Of a stretch of DNA of 25,360 nt, positions 4,340 to 25,360 are shown piece after piece. The stretch's first letter is position 1; each line of letters starts with the position of its first letter. Both the position numbers and the translations under genes were made by a program. This stretch comes from a virus. The notes below the pieces were generated by a model. That model ran no database searches. It was not told the origin of the DNA and saw only the letters and a program-made list of their open reading frames with translations. The DNA is taken from positions 1 to 25,360 of IMG/VR virus record IMGVR_UViG_3300010300_006196; one strand, written 5' to 3'.

Positions 4340-5872
4340 CTAGATCTTGCTTTTAAGCTCATCTATTTGTAACTGTTGCTCTTTAATAGCTTCAATTAAT
4401 AACGCGACAATTTTTTCATAACGTACGGCTTTGTATCCGTTGTCTCTTGTAACTACTAATTCTGGTAAAATGTATTCTATTTCTTGTGCTATCACACCTA
4501 TGTCGTGTCCAGTGTGTTCTGATTGGTTGTTCCAATCAAATTCATATCCACCTATAGATTTCAACTTACCTAATGACCCCTTTATTGGGGTAATATTATC
4601 TTTTAATCTTGCATCAGAAGAATGAAATGCTGTTACATCTCCAGTAGCTTTAATTGTACCTTCTATAAGTAGGCTACTACCTGAAATAGCATTTGCTGAT
4701 TTAATTATTGATCCTGATATCAGACCTGTAGTATTAAGTGTTGCTCCAGTAATGCCACTAGTTGCAGCTAAAGTTGTTGAAGTAACACCGGTAGCATTTA
4801 CATTAGTAAACAATACATTACTACCTGTTATTTCTTGTCCAGAGATATTTCCAACCATTGAGATTGTACCTGACCCTGATATTGTTTTAGTATTGAGGTC
4901 TAAATTACCTCCTAGTTGTGGTGTCGTATCACTTACTACACTAGTGGTGTTTGCATCCGATCCAGTGTTAATAGTGACTGCAAAGGTAGCTCCTCCTCCT
5001 TTGGTAAACGTAATTACATTGTTTGTTGCTGAAGCTGTAGTTAATAGACTAGCTGTTGCTGCATTTACTGACCCTGAAATGTCTGACCCTAATTGTATGG
5101 ATGAAGACACTAGTGTTGGTCTACCTGTCAACCCACTAAATGGTGCTATGTCTGCATTTACTGCATGAGAAGCAGAAGTGGATGTGTTAGAATAAGAGGC
5201 TGTTACTGAGTAAGAGGATGAAATAATTCCTGTTACACCGCTTCCTTCTCCTTCGAATGATCCTGAAAATGATCCTGAGGCTATAGTGTCGGTACTTCTT
5301 ACATTACCTTGATATGATCCTGAAAATGAACCACTAAGACTGTTTACACTACCTGAACCGTCTAAGTTAAATGCACCTAAAATATTTAGACTACCTGTTC
5401 TTTCATGTACGTCATTTGAACTGTCTCCAAATATTGTTGAACCTGAATTGTATATTTGTATTGTTGTGTTACGTTCTGTAACAAATTCTTCTGCTGTTAA
5501 GGTACCACCAACTGTTAAGTTACCTGAAAATTTACCACTACCTGTTACTTCAAATATACCTACTTCATTTTGAGTATCTAATAAAATCGATCCAGTAACT
5601 TTGAGATTGTTTTCAACAAAAGTTAAATTTTGACTCCCTGTAAATTGAGCATTAGCTCCTGATACGGCACTTCCTAATTTAAATTGTATAGCTCCATTTC
5701 TACCTACTGGGTTACTAAGAGGAACACTTACTGAACTACTTACAGATGTAAACTTATGTAGTTCTAAATTAGATCCTTCAACAGATGCAGAATAGAAATA
5801 CTCTCTAAAATTCTGATCAAGTTCATCATGTGTTAACGAAGACCCTTTTGTTCCTCTAAACTGAATTGCCAT
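4340..5872 (-). CDS. Long tail-fibre-like protein with S74 intramolecular chaperone
   Basis: A 510-residue protein. Residues 1-21 (MAIQFRGTKGSS, then LTHDELDQN) are shared with the next gene upstream and probably form the attachment domain. Residues about 40-415 are Gly/Ser/Thr-rich with many GSG, SGSF and ITGS units, as in trimeric beta-structured fibres. Residues 417-510 form a Peptidase_S74 (endosialidase-type) chaperone: SSDARLKDNI at 418-427, GVIAQEIEYILPE, then a terminal coiled coil. In this family the domain trimerises the fibre and cleaves itself at the Ser of the S-D-x-R motif, here S418 or S419. Expected role: host-surface binding at the virion periphery. Confidence 0.88.
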   Translation of the reverse strand: MAIQFRGTKGSSLTHDELDQNFREYFYSASVEGSNLELHKFTSVSSSVSVPLSNPVGRNGAIQFKLGSAVSGANAQFTGSQNLTFVENNLKVTGSILLDTQNEVGIFEVTGSGKFSGNLTVGGTLTAEEFVTERNTTIQIYNSGSTIFGDSSNDVHERTGSLNILGAFNLDGSGSVNSLSGSFSGSYQGNVRSTDTIASGSFSGSFEGEGSGVTGIISSSYSVTASYSNTSTSASHAVNADIAPFSGLTGRPTLVSSSIQLGSDISGSVNAATASLLTTASATNNVITFTKGGGATFAVTINTGSDANTTSVVSDTTPQLGGNLDLNTKTISGSGTISMVGNISGQEITGSNVLFTNVNATGVTSTTLAATSGITGATLNTTGLISGSIIKSANAISGSSLLIEGTIKATGDVTAFHSSDARLKDNITPIKGSLGKLKSIGGYEFDWNNQSEHTGHDIGVIAQEIEYILPELVVTRDNGYKAVRYEKIVALLIEAIKEQQLQIDELKSKI

Positions 5873-5873
5873 A

Positions 5874-6539
5874 TTAGTCTGTGTTAGGTGGTGAAGTTTT
5901 TGTTTTCAGTTCTTCTACCTCTATTTTTAATTCTTTTATAGCTTCAATTAAGTATCCAATTATACCACTATAATTAACACTAAGATAGCCATTTTTATCT
6001 TCAGAAACAACTTCTGGAATGGTTTTCTGTATTTCTTGTGCAATAACACCAACACTTTTTGATCCATCTTTATCGAAAGTAACACCTCTAGATGACACTA
6101 TTGTCGATAGTCCATCAACTACGGTTTGTATATTGTCTTTTAATCTTTCGTCTGAAGATTGAAACACAGATGCTGAAGTTCTTATACTACCAGATACTTC
6201 TAACGCATTGGTTAAAGGAAAATCAGTTGACTCATTTACGTTTATACCCACGCTAACAGACCCTCCTGATTGACTTACAATTAATCCATTTGCTGTGGTT
6301 AATGAAGCACTACCAGAATAAAATGCAAAACGACCACTAACACCTGGTTGAACACCTGATACTAATGATACTTCATGGGCTGTTTGATTGATTGGTACGT
6401 TACCACTACCTGTGTAATGTAGTACTAAGTTTCTTCCACCATTTGCTACTGAGCTAGAATAAAAAAACGAACCCATGTTTTGGTCCATCTCATCATATGT
6501 CAGAGGTTGTGATTTATTTGCTCTAAATGTTACAGCCAT
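5874..6539 (-). CDS. Short tail-fibre-like protein with S74 intramolecular chaperone
   Basis: A 221-residue paralog of the 510-residue protein that follows it. It keeps the same N-terminus (MAVTFRANKSQP, LTYDEMDQN) and the same C-terminal S74 chaperone: SSDERLKDNI at 128-137, SVGVIAQEIQKTIPE, then a helical coil with KELKIEVEELK. The stem between them is only about 85 residues, against roughly 375 in the longer copy. The Ser and Asp of the self-cleavage motif are intact. Its ATG shares one base with the stop of the preceding virion gene (TAATG), so it is probably translated by reinitiation. It is likely a short fibre or a cap at the baseplate. Confidence 0.85.
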   Translation of the reverse strand: MAVTFRANKSQPLTYDEMDQNMGSFFYSSSVANGGRNLVLHYTGSGNVPINQTAHEVSLVSGVQPGVSGRFAFYSGSASLTTANGLIVSQSGGSVSVGINVNESTDFPLTNALEVSGSIRTSASVFQSSDERLKDNIQTVVDGLSTIVSSRGVTFDKDGSKSVGVIAQEIQKTIPEVVSEDKNGYLSVNYSGIIGYLIEAIKELKIEVEELKTKTSPPNTD

Positions 6540-10221: not shown

Positions 10222-13158
10222 TTATGGGTCTATAAAGTTTGCATAGTATTCACTTCCTGATATTACTTGTAAGTCGTAGGTTACTGATAAAGTACTTCCT
10301 GTACTAACTAAAGAACCACTTCCTTGTGCTTCAGTATACCAGCCTTCAAAAATACCTGCATACGAACCTCCTCCGTATGTTACTCCTTCTGCTACTACTG
10401 TAACAAATTCAAATTGAGTAAAGTCATTTACTACGGTTAAACTTCCTGAAACTGAATCTGTTGTGTCTGGGTATATTTGTCTTACCCTTCCGGTATTGTC
10501 TGCTCCTGTTCCTTCTCCGTAGAAATTAAGTATATCACCAACATACGTTGCAGTCATAAATAGATCACAAGAAGGTGGTATTGCTAATGATAGGTTAAAT
10601 ACAGTAATGTTGAAATCAATTATAGGTTGAACAGATTTCTTAAAAGGGTTATCACTATTTAAGTCTCGGTCTGCAGCTATAACTAAACTCCCAGAAAACT
10701 CTCCAGTATATTTAGGTGTTTGTCCTGTTACTGGTCTTTCAATTCTACCTAAATTTGTTACAATACTTTGACTGTAGTTTGTATTGTACCCATCTTTATA
10801 TCCAAATGAGTTACCGTGACTACCAGTAATTGTATTTGTTTGAATGCTACCGGTATATATTTTATTTTCAAAACTAACTTGAACTTGTTTAGCTTTGCTT
10901 CTTTGGAGGATATCTGGTTTTACTATTACTCCGGTACTTATAGTACTTCGTGCAGGTACTAGATCTTTTATTGCTCTAAATACACTGTTATCGAAAAACT
11001 TGACCAATCTTATAAATGCTCCAGGAGTACGTTGAACTAAATCAGCATTCCAAAAATCTTGATACTGGTCCCAAGTTTCAGTTATAGTGTTCCATACTGC
11101 AGCACCGCTCTCATTCCTGCCGAGCAACGTTTCTCTCAACTTCAAAAGCTCACCGTAACTACTATTACCATCGTCTCTTGGATCACCTATGTAATCGTCT
11201 ATATTAAAGTCTGAGGGTAGTTGATCTTTTAAGTAGCTGTTAAGAGGTTGATTGACGTCAAACCCTACTTCCAGTAGGTGTAAATCATCTGTATATTTGG
11301 AATCTCTTCTTAATGTAGATGAGTATCTCGATAAAGTACTACCTGTAATGTAGCTACCGGTGTTCTCTAATCTTATTTTTGATAGTGATGAGGTAACGTA
11401 ATTTTCACCTGTAAATTTTGCTGAGTTTCTATCTTCACCACCGTATATCTTTATTGGTAGTATATCACTAGGTATACCAAATGAATTGATAAGAGCTCTT
11501 AACCCTCTTTCAGTTCCTTTACCTTTTAATATTACAGGTAAGTTATGATATATTCTTTTGTATACTTCTTTTAAGTAGTTATCTTTTGGTACAGGTTGTA
11601 AGTGTTCGTTTTGACTTCCTGATACTGCAGTTACAAGTTCTGTTAATACTTCACTACCACTGTTATACGACTCTCCAGTAAAGAGAGAAAATAAATTATC
11701 TAACGTTTGGTTAGAATCGTATAGTTTAAGTCCTAATGATTCTATAGAACTTTTTACTAAATCTTTACTTACACCAAAATTTAACCTATTGTCTGCATCA
11801 AACTTATCAGACGTTGCTTTAAAATATATCCAAAGATTGTCAAAATGATGTGCAATCATATTCACAAATAACAAATAAGCTGAGTTATTTGCATCTTCTC
11901 GAATAAAGGTAGGTACTGTGTTAGTAAGTATGTCTACGTTTGTGTTATCGTAGTTAGAAGCACTTAATAGTTGATTGCTAAAAAATGTAGTTGCTTCAGT
12001 AGTTGAACTTGCTTGATTTACATAAGGTCGTTTTGCAGTACTCTTAGGCCATGCACTACTACCACTTTCATAAAAAAGGTGTCTGTCGTAATGATCAAAA
12101 TTATTTACTATACCGTTAATTAGGTTTTCATAGTAGTCAACACTACCTGTGATACCCATTTTGGTGTACCCTGTTGTCTTGATGGTACTAATACTAGACT
12201 CATAACTTTTAACAAGATCTAACTTATACTTAAAGTTTCTTAATCTTTCCTCAGCAGAAGAAAAATGAATGAAAGAACTATAGTCTGTATGATCAATAGC
12301 AATCTGAGCACTATTTTCATTAAACAGTGACCTTAGTTCAAAGTAAGAATTAGTTACTGGATAGCTTAAAAGTTCATTGTACGAAAGAAACTCTGTAGGG
12401 TTATTACTTTCGTCACTAACTTCTAAATTAAAGTTGGGGCCTCTAAGTTTAGTTAGTGAAATAGTATCTGGAGTATATTCAGATGTTACTTCATAAAACA
12501 CACTGTCACTTACTGTACGTACTATGTTAAAGACCTCTTTAGTAGATACGTTTATATCTAAAGCTTGGTATAGTTTTATTAGTACTGCTGTACCTTTACT
12601 TGTTTCTTCAGTATCAACATTTATACCTATTACGGTGTTTAAAGAGTTGAAATTAAGATTAAATTCACTAAAGAATGAACCTTCATCTAGTTGCTTCTTT
12701 AAAGCACTAACGTAGTTTTTTATTTCATCGTTAGTAAGTTGATTAGAAAGTACGCGTAATTCTGTTCTATCTGGAGAAATACTCTCTATAAAGAACTGTT
12801 TTTGATTTTTGTTTTCTGAAAATAAGTCATCAGTAAACTTGTACAAAATTCTTATATCACCATTTTCAAACCCTGCTTTTTTAGCATCTGAAATAGGATC
12901 TAGAGTTAAAGCTTCTGAACCATTCTTTCCTGCCCCTGAAGACCCTAATAGTAAAGAGTATTCTAAATAGTTAGGTTCAGAGGATATGAGTTGGTTGTCT
13001 GGAGTGTATATATAAAGACCAAAGTTGTGTTTAGTAGAGTCAAACTTTTCATTAACAGAAAATGACTCTATCAACTTTGTATCACTATCGTCAAACTTAG
13101 AATTGAAACTAAGTTTCTCTAACTCAAGCTCGGTAACTTTATATTTGATTATACTCAT
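10222..13158 (-). CDS. Large baseplate/tail structural protein
   Basis: At 978 residues this is the longest gene in the window. The N-terminal half is helical and charged. Around residues 540-560, LKGKGTERGLRALINSFGIP resembles the KGT...G segment of phage tail proteins of the P2 gpI type. Around 720-750 comes a conserved FDNSVFRAIKDLVPARSTIS segment, and the last 230 residues are Ser/Gly/Thr-rich and beta, ending GSEYYANFIDP. Length and position (after gp25 and gp6) are those of T4 gp7 (a baseplate wedge protein), but I see no sequence evidence for gp7 homology. It may join the wedge to fibre proteins. Its start shares one base with the preceding stop (TAATG). Confidence 0.65.
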   Translation of the reverse strand: MSIIKYKVTELELEKLSFNSKFDDSDTKLIESFSVNEKFDSTKHNFGLYIYTPDNQLISSEPNYLEYSLLLGSSGAGKNGSEALTLDPISDAKKAGFENGDIRILYKFTDDLFSENKNQKQFFIESISPDRTELRVLSNQLTNDEIKNYVSALKKQLDEGSFFSEFNLNFNSLNTVIGINVDTEETSKGTAVLIKLYQALDINVSTKEVFNIVRTVSDSVFYEVTSEYTPDTISLTKLRGPNFNLEVSDESNNPTEFLSYNELLSYPVTNSYFELRSLFNENSAQIAIDHTDYSSFIHFSSAEERLRNFKYKLDLVKSYESSISTIKTTGYTKMGITGSVDYYENLINGIVNNFDHYDRHLFYESGSSAWPKSTAKRPYVNQASSTTEATTFFSNQLLSASNYDNTNVDILTNTVPTFIREDANNSAYLLFVNMIAHHFDNLWIYFKATSDKFDADNRLNFGVSKDLVKSSIESLGLKLYDSNQTLDNLFSLFTGESYNSGSEVLTELVTAVSGSQNEHLQPVPKDNYLKEVYKRIYHNLPVILKGKGTERGLRALINSFGIPSDILPIKIYGGEDRNSAKFTGENYVTSSLSKIRLENTGSYITGSTLSRYSSTLRRDSKYTDDLHLLEVGFDVNQPLNSYLKDQLPSDFNIDDYIGDPRDDGNSSYGELLKLRETLLGRNESGAAVWNTITETWDQYQDFWNADLVQRTPGAFIRLVKFFDNSVFRAIKDLVPARSTISTGVIVKPDILQRSKAKQVQVSFENKIYTGSIQTNTITGSHGNSFGYKDGYNTNYSQSIVTNLGRIERPVTGQTPKYTGEFSGSLVIAADRDLNSDNPFKKSVQPIIDFNITVFNLSLAIPPSCDLFMTATYVGDILNFYGEGTGADNTGRVRQIYPDTTDSVSGSLTVVNDFTQFEFVTVVAEGVTYGGGSYAGIFEGWYTEAQGSGSLVSTGSTLSVTYDLQVISGSEYYANFIDP

Positions 13159-13505
13159 TATGGATTTTCTGCAGCATTTATTCTTTCATCTAACAGTTGT
13201 TGATTTAACTGCAAGTTTTGTTCTCTTAATATTGAAATTTCATCAAGTAAAGGTTGAATTTCTTCACTGTCTTTCTCAAAATTTACAATTTCCGAACTTT
13301 TTTCTACTAGGTACCTATGGGAATTTACTTCACCTTCAATTGGTATTTCATAAAATAACTCTTCATATAGTATGAAAAAATCTTCAACTGTTGGCTCTAG
13401 CACCGGATCTGGTTGTTGAGCAAACGTTTTGAAGTTACGGTCTATTACTTTGTTAAAAGTTTTAGGATCGTATACTTTTTTCTGTATTTTTATTTCATTA
13501 GCCAT
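13158..13505 (-). CDS. Small coiled-coil protein in the baseplate operon
   Basis: A 115-residue acidic protein starting MANEIKIQKKVYDPKTFNKV. The last 40 residues (LLDEISILREQNLQLNQQLL) have heptad-like Leu/Ile spacing, as in a coiled coil, and could mediate oligomerisation. No membrane or catalytic signature. It overlaps the frameshifted extension of the preceding gene by eight bases and joins the 978-residue gene through TAATG, so it is translated as part of the baseplate set. Perhaps an assembly or linker protein; the family is not recognised. Confidence 0.62.
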   Translation of the reverse strand: MANEIKIQKKVYDPKTFNKVIDRNFKTFAQQPDPVLEPTVEDFFILYEELFYEIPIEGEVNSHRYLVEKSSEIVNFEKDSEEIQPLLDEISILREQNLQLNQQLLDERINAAENP

Positions 13506-13590
13506 GCTTAGTTACTTTGAAGATATTTTTATTATCAATTACTATAGTACTATCGTTGACTGTTGTCTTAACTAATAATCTGTAATGTCT
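13498..13590 (-). other. Out-of-frame C-terminal extension of the 13568-14548 gene
   Basis: From 13590 the +1 frame encodes RHYRLLVKTTVNDST, IVIDNKN and IFKVTKHG before TAA at 13498-13500. Removing one A from the run at 13590-13592 would give Glu-Pro-Arg-His-Tyr-Arg and join the two frames. The tail has the alternating hydrophobic pattern of a terminal beta hairpin, and I recall similar endings (a basic aromatic segment, then VKTT, then FKV near the C-terminus) in related phage virion proteins. It fills the otherwise empty 62 bases before the next gene. Confidence 0.7.
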
Positions 13591-14548
13591 TTGGTTCTAA
13601 TGAATTCATATAAAAGTCAAAATAGTTACTAGTATTATCTGCACTAACCTTAGTAAATGAAGTATCAAAGTCAACTATCATTTCTCCTGTTGTTTCATCT
13701 TGAATACCGTAATAAGAACTAGAAGGTAGTCTGTATTCGGTGAGGTAAATAGAACTAGTTACAAATGCTCTAGTTGGGTATTTCGGTCTAGCAGATATTC
13801 TAAATCTTACTTTATCTGAGTCATTATATTTTTCTTTAGCATTTTTAATTCCAACAGTTGCTATATCTGTGTCAAGTTCTGATAAGCTGCTGCTATAGTT
13901 AGAATCATCCCATTTAAACTGTAGGTATGGTTTGTATACTGTGTTTGTATCTTTACTAAAGTACTTAAGTAGTATAGAAGACGTTGTGTTAAACTCAACA
14001 GATGAATCAGCTTTTACTAAAATACCGTAGTTGTTTAATGAAGAAGAATAGTGTTGAGATACTATTCCTGTAACGTCTATCTCTGCATCATGGTCATCGT
14101 ATATACCTTTAGTTATACTTCCTGACTGACCTGTAGTTATGAAATCTCCTCCTAAAGATACCCATTCGGTAGAACCAGCATCTGTATACTTCCATGAACA
14201 ACCAGAAGTGTTTTTAGGTTCATCGTCTCCTTTTCCTAATCCATTCTCCCATGAAGAAGAAATAGGATAAGCAGTTAGGGTATAAGATTTAGGTAATTCT
14301 GTAGCGTTTGCTAACTTAAGGTTTAAACTAGCAGATATTGGCCCAGATACTTCTGTATTAACAATACTCTGTATTTTGGTTGTTTCGAATTGGATCAAAG
14401 CTCTTTTAGCTCTGCCTGTAATATTTACGTCAAAGTAACCTCCCACTTCTATTATTTCATCTCTTCCGGCATTGCCGTAAGTTCCTCCTATAGAGGGTTC
14501 ACTTGAGATGTAAGTGTCTTTTTCTGGAAATAGTCTATATAATGCCAT
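13568..14548 (-). CDS. Virion protein with DNRLRE-like N-terminal domain; apparent 3' frameshift
   Basis: The uninterrupted frame gives 326 residues. The start (MALYRLFPEKDTYISSEPS, then YGNAGRDEIIEVGG) and the following RALIQFETTKI resemble DNRLRE-type carbohydrate-binding or fibre beta-sandwich modules (P...D.YI.S......YG....I.VG......ALI.F). The end in this frame (EPKTLQIIS) looks wrong: the +1 frame continues from residue 319 with a well-formed 30-residue tail to 13498. Read through, the product would be about 349 residues. It starts two bases after the gp6 stop. Cause of the frameshift (real mutation, sequence error or recoding) is open. Likely a baseplate periphery protein. Confidence 0.68.
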   Translation of the reverse strand: MALYRLFPEKDTYISSEPSIGGTYGNAGRDEIIEVGGYFDVNITGRAKRALIQFETTKIQSIVNTEVSGPISASLNLKLANATELPKSYTLTAYPISSSWENGLGKGDDEPKNTSGCSWKYTDAGSTEWVSLGGDFITTGQSGSITKGIYDDHDAEIDVTGIVSQHYSSSLNNYGILVKADSSVEFNTTSSILLKYFSKDTNTVYKPYLQFKWDDSNYSSSLSELDTDIATVGIKNAKEKYNDSDKVRFRISARPKYPTRAFVTSSIYLTEYRLPSSSYYGIQDETTGEMIVDFDTSFTKVSADNTSNYFDFYMNSLEPKTLQIIS

Positions 14549-14549
14549 C

Positions 14550-16364
14550 TTACAATGTTGTTACTCGTCCTTCAATATCGTCATTAGGGTACTTAACTTC
14601 AAATATACTTGGATCATATGAAGGGTACACTATATTTTCTTTGGTTGCTCCTTGAACATCATATTCGTTCAAAGAATATTTACCTCCTGCTTTATTAAAT
14701 ACTGTAATATTCTTTACAGTTTGTACACCTTTTACTCTATCTAAAAGAGTATACAGTTTTGATAAATTTATAGGTTGGTTAATACTCCAATTGTCAATAT
14801 TAAAATAATTAATTAATAAGTTATTACAATTTAAAATAACATCTCTTGCTGCTGAATTAGATATTGTAACTATCTCGTACTTAACACCAATGTTAATAAC
14901 AAAAGCATCTTTTATATCTACTCCGTCTGTTAATGGTATAAATTGAGATAAATAAGTTTTTAAATTTTCTTTTAGAGTTCTACTTGCAGTAATTACATGT
15001 TTTTCATTATCATATGCAAGTACGTATAATCCAACTGCTAAAGGATTGTTACCTAACACACCTGAATTGTTACCTGTAGAAGAATCTTGAGTTGCATATA
15101 CTTTAGCAATACTACCATAAGTAGCAGGTAGTGATAAAGCTCTAACTGCATAATCTTGTAACGTTACTGTACGTTGCTGTTCTGCAAATGCTCTTAATGA
15201 ATTTTGTCTTAACTCTTCTGTCGAATCACCATCTTTACCTCCTGCTGCAGGTTGCTCATTATTAAATGTTAATGTGCCTGCAAAAGTATCGTCTGTTGCT
15301 GAAGTTACTACGGTGTCTATTGAGTTTATCGTATTAGCAGGTACGTTTGCACCTACTCCTCCTCCAGTTAAGTACCTTACCGTTAATGTGGTATTAGAAG
15401 GAGCTAATCCATATGTTTGTGTAAACAAAAAGTTAGATGGATCATATGCCTTAAAATATTCATTAGTATTATTAAAGGTAGAGGTATTTTGTATGTTAGT
15501 CGGGTTTGGTACTATGGTAGCGTCATCTTGACCTGTAATACCAGAACCAAACTGTACTTGAAGATTACCGTTAGATAAAAATCTTGTTACAAATCTTCTA
15601 GGTACTTTTTTAAGTTTGAGATTGTTTGGTACTAAACTACTGTCTGTATTTGAATTGTTTTCCGTTTCAAAAACAGTATCTTGACCTAAATAAGGAACTT
15701 CAGTCCAAATCTTTCCATCACTATCTGTAACATCTAATATACCTATTATATTACTGTCCTGTATTTCAAAAGTAGCAAATTGTTCTGCAGTAGTGTATGT
15801 CTGTGTAGTAGTTTCTATATTACCTGAAAATGCTTTTACTTTTTTAGTAAGTAAATATTCAGCAGGATTACCACTATCTAAAGAAAATATTCTTATATCG
15901 GTTGGATCATATGAACTACTGTAATTAAAGTCAACAGATGTGCGAGTGATAAAAGTTGGGTTATCACCTATATTAGCCTTTAGGGTACTGTTTTCTCTTA
16001 CACTAAGTGCTTGATCGAAATCAGGTTTATAAGATACACCGGTAGCTTGTACTCTTTGAGTTACTGTTAACTCAACTTCAGAAACAGATGTTACTCTAGG
16101 TCTATATCCCATCATATATGCTAATGAGTATAAGTTACCTGGGTTCTTAGCATGCTGTAAAAACGTCTCTTGTATTTGACTATCTTGGTAGAAAGAAAGA
16201 ATATCTCCTACATAGGCAGCCATTTCAATAAACATCATACCAGGAGATGTAGGACTAAAGTCGTTATAAGAATCAGGAAAGTAGTTTTTTGAAAACTCTA
16301 CCAACTGTTCTTTCAAGTCGCCGAAATCTCTGTTAATGTATTTTATATCTCTCTCTTCAGCCAT
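14550..16364 (-). CDS. gp6: Baseplate wedge protein, T4 gp6 / Mu gp47 (baseplate J) family
   Basis: A 604-residue protein of the length usual for gp6. Residues 38-60 (PTSPGMMFIEMAAYVGDILS) carry the SPGM...YVGDILSFY signature of gp6-like wedge proteins, followed by the segment where residues linking to neighbouring wedges sit (NLYSLAYMMGYRP at about 75-87). A later segment (LRAFAEQQRTVTLQDYAVRA) matches the baseplate J core. In T4, gp6 dimers form the continuous ring of the baseplate and change shape on infection. It shares one base with the gp25 stop (TAATG), keeping the 25-6 order of T4-like phages. Confidence 0.87.
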   Translation of the reverse strand: MAEERDIKYINRDFGDLKEQLVEFSKNYFPDSYNDFSPTSPGMMFIEMAAYVGDILSFYQDSQIQETFLQHAKNPGNLYSLAYMMGYRPRVTSVSEVELTVTQRVQATGVSYKPDFDQALSVRENSTLKANIGDNPTFITRTSVDFNYSSSYDPTDIRIFSLDSGNPAEYLLTKKVKAFSGNIETTTQTYTTAEQFATFEIQDSNIIGILDVTDSDGKIWTEVPYLGQDTVFETENNSNTDSSLVPNNLKLKKVPRRFVTRFLSNGNLQVQFGSGITGQDDATIVPNPTNIQNTSTFNNTNEYFKAYDPSNFLFTQTYGLAPSNTTLTVRYLTGGGVGANVPANTINSIDTVVTSATDDTFAGTLTFNNEQPAAGGKDGDSTEELRQNSLRAFAEQQRTVTLQDYAVRALSLPATYGSIAKVYATQDSSTGNNSGVLGNNPLAVGLYVLAYDNEKHVITASRTLKENLKTYLSQFIPLTDGVDIKDAFVINIGVKYEIVTISNSAARDVILNCNNLLINYFNIDNWSINQPINLSKLYTLLDRVKGVQTVKNITVFNKAGGKYSLNEYDVQGATKENIVYPSYDPSIFEVKYPNDDIEGRVTTL

Positions 16365-16774
16365 TACTGTTCAAAGTTAATTAAAAGTTCGTCTTCTATA
16401 TCAGTTTCTCTAAGTCTATAGCTCAAGCTAAATGATACGGTGTTTGTTTCTGAGTTACCTATTGTAGATATCTCGATTGGTTCTACTCTAGGAAAATATG
16501 TAGTTAAGTCATTTCTGACTTGTTCGTCTATTTGATTGACTTTAGTTTGAGTTAATTGCTCAAAAAGTAAGTTCTGAAGTAAATTACCAAATGTAGGGTT
16601 AAGGTATCTTTCCCCTCTACTGGTTAAAAAGAAGTTTATTAAGTTTGTCTTAATTGCTTCTTTAGTTTCAAAAGTTTGGTTGAAAACAGCTTTACCTGAA
16701 AAAGGTAGTTTTACACCTACTGCTTTTCTTGGCTGTAGATCAATTGGTGCTATTTTCTTTACTTCAAATGCCAT
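16364..16774 (-). CDS. gp25: Baseplate wedge protein, T4 gp25 family
   Basis: A 136-residue protein with the family pattern: FNQTFETKEAIKTNLINFFL (31-50), TSRGER (51-56) and LNPTFGNLLQ (58-67). Despite its old name (gp25-like lysozyme), this domain is structural: it connects the wedge to the central hub and helps trigger sheath contraction. Length matches T4 gp25 (about 130). It is joined to both neighbours by TAATG junctions, so it is likely made in fixed ratio with them. Confidence 0.9.
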   Translation of the reverse strand: MAFEVKKIAPIDLQPRKAVGVKLPFSGKAVFNQTFETKEAIKTNLINFFLTSRGERYLNPTFGNLLQNLLFEQLTQTKVNQIDEQVRNDLTTYFPRVEPIEISTIGNSETNTVSFSLSYRLRETDIEDELLINFEQ

Positions 16775-22311: not shown

Positions 22312-23055
22312 TTACTTTTTCAGTGATGGTTGGATGTATTCTGGTCCTTTTTCTAGTATATATTTGAGATCTATATAGTTAAGATTGTTTTGTATAGCAT
22401 AATCCAGTATTACGAAGTTGTATTTATGTCCTTCTCTGGAGAAATGCTTACAATCACATGAATACCTCTCATCTAAAGTCATCCAATCTTCATAATGTAT
22501 ATCACCACTTAGTGCTCCAAAGCCTGAAGCTATACTTTGTACACCTATATTGTTAAAATGATTAACAAATGATTGCCAGTAATCCATAGTCCAGTGTAAC
22601 CAAGCACCACTTACCTTACTTGATGTATTATATTTATCCATTCTCAATATCCTACATGCTTTAGCTTCTTCATCAACATTGTGATTACCTAAATGACTAG
22701 TAATTATAGGGTGTCCTTCTGGTGGGTCATCATTATACAGTATAGAAGTATATTCTCGCTTTAATCCACTGAAAGTATATTTTTCTTCTGTTACTTCTAA
22801 CTGCCTGTTAGGTGAGGTAAGAATAGTTATCACTATATCTCCTGGTACAATCTGATGTAAATATTTTGTTATTACTTTAAATGTATCTTGATTACAAGCA
22901 CCACCTAATCCTTTTAACTTAAAATCATGTTTGTATTTTTCAGCTAAAAGATACTGCCAAGTGTATTCCAGATATGGAAACTCTTTTTCCTGTCTAGATT
23001 GATCTTCTAAAAGACAGTAGTTACCTGCAAAACTATCTCCAAATATCCACAACAT
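22312..23055 (-). CDS. SGNH/GDSL hydrolase-like protein, copy 1 (canonical GDS)
   Basis: A 247-residue protein. Block I is FGDSFAGN with Ser8 as nucleophile; block II/III is GGACNQDT (51-58) with Asn55 for the oxyanion hole; GDIVITILTSPNR (72-84) is a segment shared with its two relatives; block V is DCKH, Asp201 and His204 in the usual DxxH spacing. All four SGNH residues are therefore present. The family contains esterases and acetyl-esterases acting on lipids or glycans. There is no signal peptide, so it acts in the cytoplasm, in the virion or after lysis. It starts one base after the stop of copy 2. Confidence 0.72.
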   Translation of the reverse strand: MLWIFGDSFAGNYCLLEDQSRQEKEFPYLEYTWQYLLAEKYKHDFKLKGLGGACNQDTFKVITKYLHQIVPGDIVITILTSPNRQLEVTEEKYTFSGLKREYTSILYNDDPPEGHPIITSHLGNHNVDEEAKACRILRMDKYNTSSKVSGAWLHWTMDYWQSFVNHFNNIGVQSIASGFGALSGDIHYEDWMTLDERYSCDCKHFSREGHKYNFVILDYAIQNNLNYIDLKYILEKGPEYIQPSLKK

Positions 23056-23056
23056 A

Positions 23057-23749
23057 CTAAATAAACTCTTTTAACACATCGTTAAATATATTCTTATGAC
23101 CATTAGGAGAAGGATGTGCATCTTCTATACCCGGCTTCCAATGTTTTATACCTTCATAGTGATGAGCTCTTTCAGTTGCATCCCATAAGAAAGATTTTAT
23201 ACCGATATTATTTAAATGTAGAGTAATATCATACAGTGCTGTCTTATACACTCTTAATAAAGGTTGTGAGTTAGCTCCAATAACTGATTGTATATATAAC
23301 TTTATAACTTCATTTCTATCTTCACCCCATATGGATGGGATTAGTTCATCTTGAAAATCTAAAGACCCGTCATCATTCATCCACATAGGTACCATAGTCT
23401 CAACTAATAAATCTGCTTCAGGATGTGGAATTGGGAAACGCATGGGCCATGTTGAATTGACCCATACTTTATCTCCCTCTTTCATTAAGTGTAAGCAGTT
23501 TGATAACTGTACTAAAATGGTTTGGTTACTTTGTCCTGATACAGCATAGTTTTTATACTGCATACCAAAGTGTTGTGATAGTAATTTAGGAAAAATAGTA
23601 TCTTCATACCCATCACCAACCTTTTTCCATAACTCATTATTCTTTTTTCTTTCTTGGTAGTTATCACCCATCCACTCCCAATTAAGGCCGTGACCTGAAG
23701 TCATACTACATCCAAAGAACCAAAACGTATTATCCTCTACCTTGGACAT
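23057..23749 (-). CDS. SGNH/GDSL hydrolase-like protein, copy 2 (GCS variant)
   Basis: Starting at MSKVEDNTFW it has 230 residues. Block I is FGCSMTSGHG: Ser15 is kept but the usual Asp is Cys14. SGQSNQTI (71-78) gives block II/III with Asn75; GDKVWVNSTWPMR (92-104) matches its relatives; block V is EDAHPSPNGH with Asp210 and His212, one residue closer than the normal DxxH. I chose the start at 23749 because it places block I near residue 13, as in the relatives, and limits overlap with the preceding gene to 20 bases; an in-frame ATG at 23794 would add 15 residues. Activity is plausible but the Asp-His spacing is unusual. Confidence 0.68.
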   Translation of the reverse strand: MSKVEDNTFWFFGCSMTSGHGLNWEWMGDNYQERKKNNELWKKVGDGYEDTIFPKLLSQHFGMQYKNYAVSGQSNQTILVQLSNCLHLMKEGDKVWVNSTWPMRFPIPHPEADLLVETMVPMWMNDDGSLDFQDELIPSIWGEDRNEVIKLYIQSVIGANSQPLLRVYKTALYDITLHLNNIGIKSFLWDATERAHHYEGIKHWKPGIEDAHPSPNGHKNIFNDVLKEFI

Positions 23750-23978
23750 AGTAAAAGTGAGCCTGTCTAGCTTTGAAATCTGGACCTGTTTCATTATCCA
23801 TCTTTACAGGCTGACCAGTTGAATCATAACCAGGTTTGGTACTCACCACTTTTGTAACCGTCCTAGGTTTTGTAGAAAGTCTAGATGCTATCTCACTAGC
23901 TTTTGCAGCATCCTTTTTCTTTTTTACGATATAAATCACAACTCCTGCTGCTACTATACCGATAATTACTAAAATCAT
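23730..23978 (-). CDS. Small membrane protein
   Basis: An 82-residue protein with an N-terminal transmembrane helix (MILVIIGIVAAGVVIYIV, residues 1-18) followed by KKKK, so the C-terminus is probably cytoplasmic. The rest is polar and basic, with a short helix (AAKASEIASRL) and no known motif. Its 3' end overlaps the start of SGNH-like copy 2 by 20 bases. It has the size and topology of holin-like or spanin-like proteins, but no lysis enzyme is visible next to it, so I do not assign that role. Confidence 0.65.
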   Translation of the reverse strand: MILVIIGIVAAGVVIYIVKKKKDAAKASEIASRLSTKPRTVTKVVSTKPGYDSTGQPVKMDNETGPDFKARQAHFYYVQGRG

Positions 23979-24421: not shown

Positions 24422-25360
24422 TTAATAAATATCCTGTCTATTTTTTAACCATGGATACTTTTTTTCATCATGCCATGAAGTGTCGATCTCAAAATTTGAA
24501 TCAACAAACTGTTTAAGGTTACTTATGATGTTGTGGTTAAATAATTTTTTATACCTTGTAACTGTATCTTTATTCCAATAACTGACATCTTGTTGTATTT
24601 GTTCAATTACAAAAGCAGCAAAAGAAGTGTTACCATTAGGAGACCAATGAGAGTCTTTTACTCTTTGTTTGAGATTAAGTCTTGGCCTTAACCAATCTGT
24701 GATAGGTTGAAATTCTCCCCATAGACTATCCTCCCAAACATAGACATCAACACCTATCCTATAAAGAAGACTCTGTAACTGCTGAAACTTTTCTTTATGA
24801 TGTACTTCATACACCTTATCTAAGTTACCTCTCCATGCTCTAAACCAGTGCATCAATAGGGTTATATCATCATCAGTAAAATTGTTCTCTTCTAATGTAC
24901 CAGATAGTAGATATGTGGTTAAAAACTCTTTTTCCCCTTCTTTTATTTCACCTGCATCTTCTTGTCTGAAATATTCATGCATAAATCCAAGATTAATATC
25001 AGAATATGTATCAGTTACTGTTATAGATTTAAGAACTGAGTCTTGTTTTAGGTCTAATCTAAAGTCATTCCTACGTATTGGTTCAAGAGAATAACGATTC
25101 CCTCTTGTGATACCTATAATAACCTTATCTCCTTCACTGTATAAACTACTATCTTGTAGTATTCTCGATATAGTTGTGTCATTTGCACCACCTCCTATGG
25201 ATCTCTCATGTAAATCCAACTGTAAGTAGTTGGCTACTTGTGCACCCCAATAGTGTTCCTTAAATTGATGTTGGTAGAACGGCTGGTAATACTCTGGTTT
25301 CTTAATATTCACCAAAGTACCTGCTGAAAAACTACAACCATATACATATAACTTCGCCAT
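24422..25360 (-). CDS. SGNH/GDSL hydrolase-like protein, copy 3 (GCS variant)
   Basis: A 312-residue protein whose ATG is the last three bases of the window. Block I is YGCSFSAG with Ser10 kept and Cys9 in place of Asp; block II/III is GGGANDTTI (56-64) with Asn60; GDKVIIGITRGNR (77-89) aligns with the other two copies; block V is KDSHWSPNGN, Asp236 and His238. It has an insertion of about 80 acidic residues before the YRIGVDVYVWE segment and a C-terminal extension of about 60 residues not seen in copies 1 and 2. Role as for the other copies: a likely esterase of unknown target, or a catalytically altered relative. Confidence 0.68.
   Translation of the reverse strand: MAKLYVYGCSFSAGTLVNIKKPEYYQPFYQHQFKEHYWGAQVANYLQLDLHERSIGGGANDTTISRILQDSSLYSEGDKVIIGITRGNRYSLEPIRRNDFRLDLKQDSVLKSITVTDTYSDINLGFMHEYFRQEDAGEIKEGEKEFLTTYLLSGTLEENNFTDDDITLLMHWFRAWRGNLDKVYEVHHKEKFQQLQSLLYRIGVDVYVWEDSLWGEFQPITDWLRPRLNLKQRVKDSHWSPNGNTSFAAFVIEQIQQDVSYWNKDTVTRYKKLFNHNIISNLKQFVDSNFEIDTSWHDEKKYPWLKNRQDIY

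Follow-up and report, generated by a model that had tools for sequence, protein, structure and literature searches.

The 326-aa protein encoded at 13568-14548 in the virus record IMGVR_UViG_3300010300_006196 is, with a probability of about 0.95, the product of a gene broken by a two-base loss that is private to this record. The loss, which is either an isolated mutation or an error in the sequence, has shifted the reading frame and removed a conserved end of 30 residues. We propose that a tail/baseplate-region gene lost two adjacent bases where it encodes the conserved Pro-Glu-Arg; the resulting frame shift would have deprived the protein of its last 30 residues, which end it in every relative, and no translational recoding mechanism would be needed. 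For annotation, this means that the 326-aa protein in this record is a broken copy of a conserved phage protein of 349-378 aa, and that it does not qualify as a candidate for recoding.

The gene block and the frame break

The window, which is the whole 25,360-base virus record, comes from an uncultured virus related to the Immutovirus member Flavobacterium phage immuto. Its minus strand carries a tail/baseplate block consisting of a gp25-like gene, a gp6-like gene, the 13568-14548 gene, a gene for a 115-aa protein and a gene for a 978-aa protein (Table 1). The 0-frame of the 13568-14548 gene closes with EPKTLQIIS, read from a stretch ending NSLEPKTLQIIS-TAA, and its stop codon TAA occupies positions 13570-13568. 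One base on, another frame is open from 13596 to 13501. This frame is bounded upstream by a TAG at 13599-13597, is closed by a TAA at 13500-13498, encodes HYRLLVKTTVNDSTIVIDNKNIFKVTKHG and overlaps the next gene, which starts at 13505, by 8 bases. A run of A lies at 13592-13590. All coordinates that the original prediction had given for the frame break proved correct when the sequence was rechecked. In blastx, the displaced tail matches relatives at 48-97% identity and stays in residue register with the part read in the 0-frame; judged from these alignments, the displaced frame is more than a chance opening.

Table 1. Features of the tail/baseplate block around the frame break in the window
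Feature	Position	Strand	Remarks
gp25-like baseplate wedge gene	16364..16774	-	upstream of the 13568-14548 gene, intact
gp6-like baseplate wedge (Baseplate_J) gene	14550..16364	-	upstream of the 13568-14548 gene, intact
Truncated 326-aa frame, DNRLRE-like tail/baseplate-region protein	13568..14548	-	residues 1-320 homologous to relatives
Last 6 residues of the 326-aa frame (TLQIIS)			out-of-frame read-on
Two-base loss site relative to all homologues	13592..13593	-	CCAGAAAGAC in the nearest relative, CCAAAGAC in the window
Displaced coding sequence, conserved C-terminal tail (ending RHYRLLVKTTVNDSTIVIDNKNIFKVTKHG, then stop)	13498..13593	-	read in the frame that follows the deletion
Stop/start overlap ATGGCTAA(TG) with the 115-aa gene	13498..13505	-	conserved
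115-aa gene after the 13568-14548 gene	13158..13505	-	conserved, intact

Comparison with relatives

The nearest relative of the window, the IMG/VR contig IMGVR_UViG_3300007539_001641 (L001/L022), is 99.76% identical to it; their 8042-bp alignment contains 17 substitutions and one gap. This sole gap is the absence of two bases from the window between 13592 and 13593, a placement that is ambiguous by one base. On the coding strand, L022 reads CCAGAAAGACAT and the window reads CCAAAGACAT, and the loss takes out part of the conserved Pro-Glu-Arg. The relative shows the same gene order as the window, has the two bases and encodes an unbroken protein of 350 aa. The break had originally been attributed to one surplus A in the run at 13590-13592. 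This candidate was rejected in favour of a two-base loss, because the window is two bases short against every relative. A loss of two bases shifts the frame in the same way as a gain of one (+1 modulo 3), which explains why an extra A had been suspected.

A scan of IMG/VR with the 326-aa product revealed relatives at 20 loci. At the loci reaching the gene end, the tblastn match ends at residue 320 (319 in L011), which is exactly at the break. The site is covered by 17 of the 20 loci, and the frame continues directly into the tail in all 17. One further contig (L023), found by pattern, brings the number of IMG/VR contigs covering the site to 18, several of which are near-duplicates of one another; the unbroken protein measures 349-378 aa in these contigs. 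With immuto and Microcystis phage Mel-JY01 added, the unbroken protein, 349-386 aa long, is present in twenty sequences. It ends in P(E/G)R(H/Y/F)YR(L/I)...FKV, and its stop codon overlaps the start of the following gene; the overlap ATGGCTAATG is kept in most of the twenty. Termination at 13568 would uncouple this overlap with the 115-aa gene in the window record. The relatives thus bear out the claim that the frame break cuts off a conserved C-terminus. Tail-less homologues terminating at the 0-frame stop would have spoken against this claim; every homologue covering the region has the tail. In the four closest relatives beyond L022 (L002, L003, L005 and L006, each compared with L001), the tail is under purifying selection, with pN of 0.03-0.05 against pS of 0.5-0.7.

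The orthologue, by position and by sequence, in Flavobacterium phage vB_FspM_immuto, which is grown in the laboratory on Flavobacterium sp. LMO8, is QQO92077.1 (immuto35A_159). It follows the gp25-like and gp6-like genes and precedes a gene for a protein of about 113-115 aa. It shares 48% identity with the window protein over residues 1-320, the C-terminal sequence PERYYRILVKT..FKVVRNG and the same stop/start overlap. It differs in being encoded by a single unbroken frame of 369 aa, and is annotated as a hypothetical protein.

No other IMG/VR contig carries an exact match to the mutated 21-mer, and the intact 23-mer is present in two IMG/VR contigs. The lesion is found in one record and is absent from near-identical as well as more distant relatives. 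This shows that it is derived and confined to this record. A second lesion of this type was not detected in the window.

Sequence quality of the record

The blastx comparison of the window with the long open reading frames of thirteen related loci did not bring up a second gene with a relative split between two frames; this covers the genes that have a relative in the thirteen-locus set, which a few genes near the window ends do not. The remaining multi-frame matches come from paralogous tail-fibre genes with an S74 chaperone domain. Two adjacent paralogues on the minus strand, a long one at 4340-5872 and a short one at 5874-6539, form a tandem tail-fibre pair; Pfam gives a Peptidase_S74 endosialidase-chaperone domain in both, with E 1e-15 and 2e-11. 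Among 172 gene matches in the relatives (150 kb, a redundant set), none is split. Wherever the polarity of a nonsynonymous difference from L022 is evident, the window has kept the ancestral base and amino acid. The frame lesion is therefore isolated, and the view that the contig is generally error-prone was rejected, since no other gene is split. L022 itself has four derived nonsynonymous changes (at window positions 13716, 14603, 14689 and 14740) within about 1 kb at the junction of gp6 and the next gene, where the window residues are ancestral.

Origin of the lesion

Two origins of the deletion are compatible with its restriction to one record, and they correspond to two of the causes listed in the original prediction, sequencing error and real mutation. 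We regard an error in the consensus, or a lesion affecting one template molecule or a few in the sample, as jointly the most likely, with somewhat better than even chances. One indel in 25 kb falls within the range reported in a published viral-assembly benchmark (PMC6487183), so that an error is a sufficient explanation. The other origin is a real frameshift mutation established in the viral population, in which case the 326-aa protein would remain functional despite its altered end, or would not be needed. This is a possible but clearly less probable account. It draws on the character of the lesion, since the common sequencing errors less typically take the form of a two-base deletion outside a homopolymer, and on the state of the contig, which is otherwise of good quality, carries no error load in the rest of the window and keeps the ancestral amino acids relative to L022. 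Against it stands the tail, which none of the 20 other sequences extending this far lacks; because purifying selection acts on the tail in the relatives, a fixed deletion in the viral population is less likely. The failure to find the variant 21-mer anywhere else in IMG/VR also argues against such a mutation. It is doubtful that a natural viral population, whose tail might then be altered, is viable with a C-terminally truncated form of this baseplate-region protein, which is otherwise universally conserved.

The third cause on the original list, programmed recoding, did not stand. Programmed +1 (or -2) ribosomal frameshifting would yield a short and a long protein, and it could account for a displaced frame that is open and coding and for a 0-frame stop that comes soon after the shift point. 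Programmed frameshift sites are conserved features shared by the relatives that use them, as in tail assembly chaperones. In every relative covering the site, the 99.76% identical one included, a single stop-free frame encodes the long protein. As no relative has a frame break to recode, programmed frameshifting was rejected and is effectively excluded. Still less probable, and refuted by the homologues, is a gene that truly ends at the 0-frame stop, with the tail as unrelated downstream sequence. The open reading frame list, taken alone, would most simply be read in this way, and no support for it was found; the homologues all run through the site into the same tail and the same conserved stop/start overlap.

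The gene product and other proteins of the window

The product of the 13568-14548 gene is probably an undescribed DNRLRE-like structural protein. Its residues 10-210 match positions 1-162 of 164 of the NCBIfam DNRLRE domain NF033679 (E about 5e-8 to 6e-8) at 32.9-33.2 bits, just below the curated cut-off of 34, and the C-terminal 140 residues fall outside this domain. No significant family was found for the gene in PHROGs or Pfam, a sequence profile search of the PDB with the gene product gave no match, and a scan of genome contigs with the intact homologue revealed no relatives. The place of the gene directly after gp25 and gp6 suggests that it encodes a component of the baseplate or of the tail-fibre attachment. 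The intact DNRLRE-like family adjoining gp6 is conserved in Immutovirus-like phages. The structure predicted for the intact homologue from 11 sequences is too uncertain to use (mean pLDDT 47.7). The tail had been described as a beta hairpin; the prediction agrees in giving two strands (322-331 and 334-345), but at a pLDDT of about 32-42, which is too low to rely on.

Elsewhere in the window, three neighbouring minus-strand genes (22312-23055, 23057-23794 and 24422-25360) encode proteins with the similar N-termini LWIFGDSFAG, FWFFGCSMTSG and LYVYGCSFSAG, which resemble those of GDSL/SGNH hydrolases. Only the product of 23057-23794 has a Pfam match, and a weak one (Lipase_GDSL, E 0.003). The three proteins possibly form a paralogous family of phage SGNH-like enzymes.
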